From the NCBI GenBank assembly GCA_024648695.1, contig JACAVV010000012.1, forward strand, positions 1-49,999: 49,999 nt of DNA, given 5' to 3'. This stretch comes from Nitrospina sp. GTDB taxonomy: Bacteria; Nitrospinota; Nitrospinia; Nitrospinales; JACRGP01. This document shows positions 1 through 3,474 of this stretch, piece by piece (within the stretch, counting starts at the first letter, position 1; each line of letters opens with the position of its first letter). A program made the translations under genes and the position numbers. The notes beneath the pieces are model-generated. The model saw only the letters and a list, made by a program, of their open reading frames with translations. It did not search any database and was not told the DNA's origin.

Positions 1-153
1 TAAATTCAGGGGTAAAACGGGACAACATATACCCGGCATAAATCGAATACAAAAATTTATTACCTACTTTTTCAATCTTAAATTCTAAATTCCTCTAATT
101 TCTCAATTTTTAGAGGTGCCCTTAATTATTTATAAAAAAAACTCTAATGAGCG

Positions 154-755
154 CTAGCTTAATCTTTGAGGGTGTCTAACAAAAATTGCTAAAGAAGATT
201 AATGATTTCTGGGATTTTCATTTTTTGGCAAAATACTTATATTAGAAGCATACAAGGATTGATGAAGCCATTGATTCAGGTAGCAAGAAAATTATTTTTA
301 AAAAGAATTTAAGGAATTTATCATGAATGTTTCAGGCCGAATTTCAGAAATGGGACCAACAGTTTGGGTTTATGTTCTTTTAGCCTTTTATACGATATAT
401 TTCTGGTAAAAAAAGTAAAACCCAGAGTTTTCGATAAAGGCTATAAAAGCAATCTGATGAAAAGGGTTTTGTCATCCCCTTTAGATTTCTACTTGATTCT
501 CCTAATTATGTAGAGTTGCCGTAAAGACAGCTAAAATCAAACCAGAAATACCAAGTCTTGACTCACTGCTACTGGAATTTTGAAGCCCTGAACACATTAA
601 AGGGTTTATTGAAAATCCCGCCTTTTTAAGATTAATCCTCCACCATTTCCTTCTGAGTATTCCCCTCACCCCTGAAATTTCATCCAAGCTTCTAAAATAA
701 ATGTTCGACCTTGTTATAGTGCTAACCCAAAAAAACAAGCTATTAGTCCCCTAAA
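154..755 (+). repeat. Tandem duplicated unit A
   Basis: First of two diverged direct copies (the second is 835-1403). They share CTTTGAGGG followed shortly by CTAACAAAAATTG, then GGGATTTTCATTT, a 28-codon ORF, a downstream block with GCCCTGAACAC and ATCCCGCCTT, and a closing GCTAACCCA...TATTAG stretch. The offset between copies is about 680 bp on the 5' side and about 645 bp at the 3' end, so the copies have gained or lost bases. Similarity is highest across the small ORF. Bases 1-153 before it hold no gene I recognise, only AT-rich sequence with a short CCTCTAA/TTAGAGG inverted repeat near base 95. Confidence 0.75.
323..409 (+). CDS. 28-aa single-span membrane microprotein, copy 1
   Basis: Short ORF starting ATG at 323 and ending TAA at 407-409. 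The N-terminal third is polar (begins MNVSGRISEMG) and the rest is one hydrophobic aromatic stretch (VWVYVLLAFYTIYFW) running to the C-terminus, long enough for one membrane span. AAGGAATTTATC precedes the ATG, giving an AAGGA ribosome site at about 7 nt. The main evidence that it is real is the paralogue at 1004-1090: the two peptides differ at only 5 of 28 positions, while flanking non-coding DNA is much more diverged. I do not recognise a family. Small accessory subunits of respiratory complexes look like this in size and topology, but nothing here assigns it to one. Confidence 0.65.
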   Translation: MNVSGRISEMGPTVWVYVLLAFYTIYFW

Positions 756-834
756 GCCCTTTCACAAAAACCTCATAAATCCTTGAAAATAAATCCTTTT
801 ATAAAACTGACTTGCGAACAAAGGGCTATTCAAC
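410..834 (+). other. Gene-free stretch downstream of microprotein 1
   Basis: No convincing gene. A 78-codon minus-strand frame (502-738) exists but is not conserved in the duplicate copy, where the matching frame is broken by a stop. The stretch contains the conserved non-coding block of unit A: GCCCTGAACAC at 585-595, ATCCCGCCTT at 615-624, and a GCTAACCCA motif near 721. Confidence 0.5.
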
Positions 835-1003
835 CTAGCTAAACCTTTGAGGGAGCCTAACAAAAATTGTTAGAGAAATTTAATGGTTTTTGGGATTTTC
901 ATTTGTTCCCAACTTGATTATATTGGAAGCATAAGAGAATTGATGAAGCGAGCAATTTAGTTAAAAAGAAATCCGCTAATAAAAAAATTACGAGGTATTT
1001 AAC

Positions 1004-1090
1004 ATGAATTTTTCAAGCCGTATTTCAGAAATAGGATTAACCGTTTGGGTTTATGTTCTTTTAGCTTTTTATACGATTTATTTCTGGTAA
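1004..1090 (+). CDS. 28-aa single-span membrane microprotein, copy 2
   Basis: Paralogue of the 323-409 ORF with identical length and the same hydrophobic C-terminal segment (VWVYVLLAFYTIYFW). The differences lie in the N-terminal half (begins MNFSSRISEIG). ATG at 1004 is preceded by ACGAGGTATTTAAC, an AGGAGG-like site at suitable distance. Many codon differences in the shared C-terminal segment are synonymous (for example GCC/GCT, ATA/ATT), which suggests selection on the peptide. A perfect 7-bp hairpin (CAACCTC CTT GAGGTTG, 1093-1109) follows the stop directly but has no U-run. Function unknown. Confidence 0.65.
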   Translation: MNFSSRISEIGLTVWVYVLLAFYTIYFW

Positions 1091-1247
1091 AACAACCTCC
1101 TTGAGGTTGCGATAAAGCCGATATAACACATTGAAGTAAATGGCTTTAATACCCCACCCTCAGTTTCTACCCCACTCTCCCAATAAACAGGGTTGGAATA
1201 GAAACAGTTAAACTTGGTTCACAACGACCGTAATTCTTGGTGCCCTG

Positions 1248-1266
1248 AACACTAAAAGTGTTTTTT
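1248..1266 (+). terminator. Weak hairpin with U-run in unit B
   Basis: AACACT, loop AAA, AGTGTT, with the T-run TTTTTT overlapping the 3' arm (1261-1266). It lies about 155 bp downstream of microprotein 2 inside the conserved non-coding block. The stem is short and AT-rich. The equivalent bases of unit A do not form it, so this is a tentative terminator. Confidence 0.3.
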
Positions 1267-1403
1267 AAAGATCCCGCCTTATTTGATATATATTCTCAAT
1301 AATTACATTCTGGATATTTCCCTCATCCCTTCCATCAAACAAAAAAAAGGTCAGCTCGAAAAGAGCTAACCCATAAAAAAATAAGGTATTAGAACCCGCT
1401 AAT

Positions 1404-1617
1404 GTCCATTAATAATAAACCAACATTAAACACTGATAAATTTAGCTTTGTGTGAAGGAATCTCACATCCGGAAAAAGCTTAAACCTTCTCCAGGTTTCC
1501 ATTTGTCATCGCCAATAAATTCTCCTAACGGGGAAGTTAATGGAAGCGAGAGGAGAAACAACGAGCAAACAGTTAGGGTTTTGACCACGTCAGCAATTCC
1601 CCCACCTGGGAAGGTGA
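1404..1617. other. Gene-free stretch before the tRNA
   Basis: Frames of 60-68 codons exist on both strands but overlap each other, lack homology I recognise and have no clear ribosome site. A 6-bp hairpin (AAACCT/AGGTTT, 1482-1498) followed on the minus strand by AAGCTTTTT could weakly terminate the tRNA transcript. Nothing else seen. Confidence 0.4.
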
Positions 1618-1690
1618 TGGGCCCACCAGGACTCGAACCTGGGACCATCCGGTTATGAGCCGGAGGCTCTACCAGCTGAGCTATAGGCCC
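1618..1690 (-). tRNA. tRNA with CAU anticodon (Met, or Ile2 read by lysidine)
   Basis: On the minus strand the 73 bases fold as a full cloverleaf: acceptor GGGCCTA/TGGGCCC, D-stem GCTC/GAGC, anticodon stem TCCGG/CCGGA with loop CTCATAA, T-stem CCAGG/CCTGG with loop TTCGAGT, discriminator A. The anticodon is CAU. The acceptor starts with a G1-C72 pair, so this is not a typical initiator tRNA. It is either elongator tRNA-Met or the tRNA-Ile whose CAU is modified to lysidine; the sequence alone does not settle which. CCA is not encoded. It begins 5 bp after the rpoD stop, so it is probably cut from the rpoD transcript. Confidence 0.93.
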
Positions 1691-1695
1691 TTTTT

Positions 1696-3474
1696 TTATC
1701 CCTCAATAAAACTTCGTAATTTTTTACTTCTACTTGGGTGGCGCAGTTTGCGAAGCGCTTTCGCCTCAATCTGCCTGATGCGTTCTCGTGTAACCGCAAA
1801 GTCCTGGCCCACTTCTTCCAATGTGTGCTCGGAATCCAGCCCAATACCAAAACGTTTGCGCAAAACTTTCTCTTCTCTGGACGCAAGAGTGCCAAGGACC
1901 TTTAAGGTTTGGTCTTTGAGATTTTTCTTGACCACAGCATCGATCGGAGACATGATTTTTTTATCTTCAATAAAGTCACCAAGGTGACTGTTTTCTTCTT
2001 CACCAATCGGTGTCTCCAGAGAAATGGGTTCTTTTGCAATTTTCAGGACCTTTCTCACCTTATCCACTGGCAAACTCATCTTTTCGGCGATTTCTTCCGG
2101 GGTGGGTTCACGTCCCAGTTCCTGCACCAAATGGCGCGAGACCCGAATGAGCTTGTTGATCGTTTCAATCATGTGCACGGGAATACGAATGGTTCGTGCT
2201 TGATCCGCAATCGCGCGGGTTATGGCCTGGCGTATCCACCATGTGGCGTACGTACTAAATTTGTAACCGCGCCGGTATTCGAATTTGTCCACGGCTTTCA
2301 TAAGACCGATATTGCCTTCCTGAATCAAATCCAGAAACTGCAATCCCCGGTTGGTGTATTTTTTCGCAATACTGACCACCAGGCGAAGATTGGCTTCTGC
2401 CAGTTCCCGCTTGGCCGTTTTGTCTTTAACCCTCCCGCGGGCAATAGCACGAACGGTGGACAGGAGTGAATCTTTGCTAGCCCCGGTTTCTTTCTCAATT
2501 TTTTTAATTCTTCTTCTCCCAGCTTGAACAGACTTTAAATGTTGCTCGTACTGGACTTTGGTGACGACTTTATTGCTGGTCGGGATTTTTACACTTTTTT
2601 GCTTGACCCAGTTTTTGGCTAATTTTTTAATATCCGCCAAACTCATTTTGAGTTCCTTTTCGAGCATGCGTTCCTGCTTGCCCGCTTCACGGATTTCCGC
2701 CGCCACCTCGTAAATGTTTTCAATGATTCCGTCCATCACTTCCATGCTGAAATTAATGTCACACAAGCTGTCTTCCACCGCTTTTTGCTGTTTCGTCTGG
2801 TCTTTCGTGAGGCGGGTTTGCATTTTTTCAGACAAATTTGATGCGGAAAGTCTTTTTTCAAGGTTGACCAGTTTTTTAGTCTGGTTCCTGAAATTCTGAA
2901 TGGCTTTCAGGACCCGCTTGGATTCGGTTTTTTCAGATTGTTCTTTTTTCTCATCCATTTCGGCTGTGGTGATGTAGTCAAAAACAGAACTTTCATTCCC
3001 TTTAATTTGTTCACCTATGTTTTCGATTTCCTGCAATGTGACGCAACAATTTGCTACAGCGGACAAAACTTCGTTCTGGCCATCCTCGATACGTTTAGCG
3101 ATTTCAACTTCGCCTTCCCGGGTGAGCAGGGAAATTGTTCCCATTTCTCTTAAATACATGCGAACAGGGTCGTCGATGGATATATTGTCCGCTTTGGGTA
3201 CAGCTAATTCTTCATCCTCACTACTGGAAGAATCATCTTTATCGTCACCCTCAATCCGGTTAATCGCAAGCTTTTCCCCTTTCATGGCGGTATCGACGAT
3301 ATCAATTTCGTTTTCCCCGAATAGATGCATCAGGTCGTCAATCTGCTCAGGGGCCACCACATCGGAAGGCAACACATCGTTAACTTCTTCATACGTCAGA
3401 TACCCTTTTTCCTTACCCAGCGAAATAAGTTGATTTATTTCTGTTACATCTACGGACTTTTCTTGCATGAGCAA
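1696..3474 (-). CDS. rpoD: RNA polymerase primary sigma factor (sigma-70)
   Basis: Housekeeping sigma factor that directs RNA polymerase to -10/-35 promoters. All group-1 regions are present in order: region 1.1 (about 1-80), region 1.2 ([12 protein letters not shown], about 97-110), an acidic/coiled non-conserved insert, region 2 with [31 protein letters not shown] and the -10-recognition helix [10 protein letters not shown], region 3, and region 4.2 with the helix-turn-helix [20 protein letters not shown] at the C-terminus. Length (592 aa) is normal. The frame opens with TTG at 3474, 5 nt after AGGAG; an in-frame ATG lies two codons later (3468) at a less ideal distance, so TTG may be the true start. 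Last protein gene of the yqeY-dnaG-rpoD operon, 41 bp after dnaG. Confidence 0.97.

Follow-up and report, generated by a model that had tools for sequence, protein, structure and literature searches.

A tandemly duplicated unit encoding a putative 28-residue membrane peptide downstream of rpoD and tRNA-Met in Nitrospina sp.

ZorO, DinQ, TisB and YohP, small peptides known as type I toxins or from stress responses, are thought to alter the inner membrane or to bind a membrane protein. The zorO/orzO–zorP/orzP locus of E. coli O157:H7 is a type I toxin–antitoxin system in which zorO and zorP lie in tandem and each encode 29 residues (PMC11264685, PMC3919570). The ldr genes are also found in tandem, with peptides of 35 residues (PMC4147584). 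Cationic residues in type I toxins are generally C-terminal, although not universally so, IbsC, ShoB and DinQ being without them (PMC8309996).

The locus described here was analysed in a window of 49,999 nucleotides, the whole stretch of DNA under study. It resembles zorO/zorP in having two similar units in tandem, each with a hydrophobic peptide of about 29 residues (PMC11264685, PMC3919570), but differs in that the peptides match no family, an antisense RNA gene could not be found and the C-terminal residue is uncharged. The Ldr/Rdl repeats of the Fst/Ldr family are likewise long and arranged in tandem, and each encodes a single small membrane peptide (PMC4147584). The Ldr peptides, however, are longer and have a positively charged C-terminus that is absent here (PMC8309996), and the PXXXG(C) motif of the family (PMC8309996) is missing from both peptides, which show no similarity to the family. 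DinQ of the agrAB locus is comparable as a 27-residue single transmembrane peptide lying alone in an intergenic region (PMC3567139), but is controlled by LexA and has two antisense RNAs, whereas an antisense gene was sought here and not detected. YohP, one of the stress-linked small membrane proteins, is also similar in size (27 residues, essentially a single transmembrane domain; PMC7549839). It is oriented Nout–Cin, whereas the charges of the present peptides suggest that the N-terminus is inside, and again there is no family match. The locus is not a new kind of system; orphan small membrane peptides, perhaps toxin-like, are already well known.

A unit of about 550 bp is present twice with a period of 681 bp, downstream of rpoD and tRNA-Met (Table 1). 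The two units share 71% identity over 154–673, and an upstream region, a promoter, a leader, an ORF and a long 3′ region are present in each. The first-pass annotation had described two ORFs in tandem; the pair is as described, but the whole unit is duplicated, promoter included. No third copy of the ORF was found in a search of the whole genome. Position 1 is the start of the contig, and unit 1 abuts the end of an insertion sequence that recurs at ten other places in the genome with 96–100% identity and at a further two with 85%. All five of the recurrences that were inspected lie at contig edges, indicating that the assembly is broken there. Because the contig starts in this insertion sequence, any more copies of the unit beyond position 1 would not be visible.

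Table 1. Positions of features of the duplicated units and of the adjoining insertion sequence in the window.
Feature	Position	Strand	Remarks
Insertion sequence end, neighbour outside the unit	1–121		GGGCACCTCTAAAAATTGAG-type terminus
Duplicated unit, copy 1	155–745	+	Well conserved to about 673, weaker to about 745
Sigma-70-like promoter TTTTCA-17-TATATT, copy 1	215–243	+	
Shine–Dalgarno-like AAGGA, copy 1	311–315	+	7 nt from ATG
Microprotein ORF, copy 1	323–409	+	28 residues
Duplicated unit, copy 2	836–1420	+	End approximate
Perfect palindrome CTAACAA-AAA-TTGTTAG, unit 2	857–873		5′ of the promoter
Sigma-70-like promoter TTTTCA-17-TATATT, copy 2	896–924	+	Same alignment columns as copy 1
Shine–Dalgarno-like GAGGT, copy 2	992–996	+	About 7 nt from ATG
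Microprotein ORF, copy 2	1004–1090	+	28 residues

The peptides are MNVSGRISEMGPTVWVYVLLAFYTIYFW (ORF 323–409) and MNFSSRISEIGLTVWVYVLLAFYTIYFW (ORF 1004–1090). As first annotated, they agree at 23 of 28 positions, have a common hydrophobic aromatic ending, which comprises the last 16 residues (TVWVYVLLAFYTIYFW), and are each preceded by a purine-rich ribosome site (AAGGA in copy 1 and GAGG in copy 2, about 7 nt 5′ of the ATG). A head of 10–12 residues with one arginine and one glutamate is followed by a hydrophobic segment that runs to the carboxyl terminus, and seven of the last 15 residues are aromatic. The C-terminus (…YTIYFW) has no cationic residue and the net charge is 0. With 28 residues and one putative transmembrane helix, the peptides fit the description of type I toxins as hydrophobic peptides of fewer than 60 residues. 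Their earlier designation as membrane microproteins is plausible, although the best 17-residue Kyte–Doolittle means (1.41 and 1.82, respectively) are moderate.

The ORFs are identical at 78 of 87 nucleotides (90%) compared with 288 of 406 (71%) in the flanks (Fisher P = 1e-4), which bears out the earlier remark that coding similarity exceeds that of the surroundings; divergence amounts to 10% in the ORF, 29% in the flanks and 33% in the 5′UTR (67% identity). A maximal-scoring segment, calculated from log-odds blind to the ORF, spans 316–411 (permutation P = 0.0002, shuffled columns) and corresponds to the ORF with its ribosome-site spacer and stop. No indel and no stop distinguishes the two ORF copies, and the ribosome sites are retained. 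The selection tests compare just two paralogues and nine nucleotide differences, which are distributed 3/1/5 over codon positions 1/2/3. The NG86 estimates are dN = 0.071 and dS = 0.304, the latter (0.30) close to the divergence of the flanks, while YN00 gives dS = 0.78, so that dN/dS is about 0.1–0.24 across the two methods. The head is variable and the membrane segment is strictly kept, the three changes in codons 13–28 all being synonymous (P about 0.01). Under neutral divergence at the level of the flanks, the occurrence of only five amino-acid changes and no stop has P = 0.00015. The synonymous pattern that had been pointed out initially is upheld by dN < dS and by codons 13–28, but not by synonymous bias alone, which is weak and not significant given nine changes (P = 0.16). 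In the comparison of the two sequences, the strong signal is the fall in divergence bounded by the ORF, not synonymous bias. An upstream pair of leader ORFs (202–312 and 883–960) was rejected as coding, with changes distributed 5/8/1, at positions 1 and 2 and almost never at 3; this opposite pattern serves as a control and indicates that the signal is specific to the microprotein frame.

The promoter hexamers are identical between the copies and the 17-nt spacer has drifted. This is the only promoter-like site, on either strand, that is in register in both copies. Promoter-like sites are no more numerous there than in shuffled sequences, so the evidence for a promoter is the register and conservation and not the match itself. 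The stretch 5′ of the promoter (155–214 versus 836–895) is 83% identical between the units. The counterpart in copy 1 of the palindrome in this stretch (176–192) is degenerate with two mismatches, and a genome-wide regulon search allowing one mismatch returned only the site at 857–873; the palindrome stretch is a possible regulator site.

A true type I toxin–antitoxin system, in which each unit would encode an antisense or trans-acting small RNA as a repressor of peptide translation, would fit the size of the peptide, its single hydrophobic segment, its own promoter and the tandem autonomous units. The long 3′ region would also fit: the non-coding stretch 557–673 (counterpart about 1215–1331) is 76% identical between the units and is possibly a small RNA or the end of a converging transcript. 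Complementarity between 209–221 and 609–621 is conserved as well, although the stretches are short and A+T-rich. This reading is nevertheless improbable. No sigma-70-like promoter on the minus strand is common to both copies at the conserved positions, the 557–673 region lacks a folding signal, Rfam gave no match there or in the search for an antitoxin RNA, and structure z-scores are near 0 for whole transcripts and 5′UTRs. A z-score of −2.8 was obtained for the 3′ structure of copy 2 only, and a post-stop hairpin, strong in that copy alone, was rejected as a conserved element. With no shared sigma-70-like antisense promoter, no significant RNA structure and a C-terminus that is not cationic, the locus was not assigned to the type I toxin–antitoxin systems. 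It is a doubtful proposition that the membrane-acting microproteins form a family that is new and specific to the lineage, arranged as tandem autonomous units and possibly constituting a toxin–antitoxin system whose RNA antitoxin escapes known models.

Searches of 77 genomes of the phylum, four of them from the same family and 71–86% complete, gave no homologue of the peptide; no other member of the genus is among them, so that close relatives may have one. Public collections of genomes, viruses, phages and plasmids gave no match, nor did solved structures, Pfam, PHROGs and PADLOC (E up to 10) or NCBIfam (E up to 1), and the initial impression of no known family therefore holds in every library searched. 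The degenerate motif Y-phi3-x-FY-x-phi-YFW matched 32 times in genomes and five times in viruses (84,980 species genomes plus viral contigs). These matches were judged from their reading frames to be unrelated, being A+T-rich or frame-interrupted. Four weak matches, L003–L006 (E = 0.08–3.5), were also rejected: L003 is an antisense ORF upstream, next to an unrelated gene, the L004 match is antisense to a large ORF, and the matches L005 and L006 fall within long open frames (443 and 429 codons, respectively). The first-pass annotation had regarded the lack of a homologous ORF in related genomes as grounds for refutation. Such an ORF is indeed lacking throughout the 77 genomes, but with no second genome of the genus and with incomplete family genomes this absence shows that the ORF is restricted to a lineage, not that it is without function.

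The orphan status would also suit an old intergenic tandem duplication with no peptide function, in which the ORFs are similar by chance, through local gene conversion or for reasons of RNA or DNA. The non-significant synonymous bias agrees with this, as does the high identity of the region 5′ of the promoter. Gene conversion could lower divergence, yet one would not expect its effect to end where the ORF ends. The coincidence of the conserved segment with the ORF bounds, the freedom from indels and stops, the kept ribosome sites and the lack of a folding signal in the 5′UTR or whole transcript make a functionless ORF unlikely. Orphan status in every collection searched counts against a selected peptide, whereas the paralogue comparison, the kept promoter and the ORF-bounded segment count for it, and we consider with reasonable confidence that the peptide is made and selected. 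The two paralogues, on which this reading depends, likely encode a selected, translated peptide, probably a small membrane protein that is confined to this lineage and present in two copies. The best explanation overall, and one that we favour on balance, is that each unit is a free-standing gene for a membrane-acting 28-residue peptide.

In such a gene, the sigma-70-type promoter about 80 nt upstream would drive a short mRNA, which would be translated into the 28-residue peptide. The peptide would be inserted as a single helix, probably with its N-terminus inside, and when induced might conceivably alter the inner membrane or bind a membrane protein, and the tandem copies may raise or diversify its dose. 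By analogy with the known peptides, a toxin-like, membrane-perturbing action can be put forward tentatively, and a function akin to that of the small membrane toxins is a guess.

The main alternative is that the peptide is not toxic and serves a membrane complex as an accessory subunit or as a regulator, in the way of CydX and KdpF. A strictly conserved membrane segment with a variable head, an aromatic-rich helix and a separate promoter in both copies are consistent with such a role. It is rather unlikely, however, as no membrane-complex gene adjoins the units, whose neighbours away from the insertion sequence are the housekeeping genes tRNA-Met, rpoD, dnaG and yqeY, which do not hint at a function, and as a homologue in the 76 other genomes of the phylum, normally expected of a conserved subunit, was not found. 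No Pfam or NCBIfam profile of CydX, KdpF or other known small subunits matched. If the free-standing peptide gene is real, it is one that standard annotation misses, in a thinly sampled bacterial lineage, and it shows how a microprotein under selection can be picked out from its paralogues alone when there is no orthologue.

The arrangement of rpoD followed by tRNA-Met(CAT) (1618–3474 in the window) is conserved in every locus examined within the taxonomic order. The idea that relatives have a conserved microprotein at this position was rejected, as no similar peptide follows rpoD–tRNA-Met in the loci scanned (all but a few last loci). A strong intrinsic terminator lies on the minus strand at 1348–1372, after rpoD and tRNA-Met, and its counterpart in unit 1 (about 700–735) appears decayed by eye. 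This remnant suggests that the duplication copied the end of the rpoD/tRNA-Met transcript.
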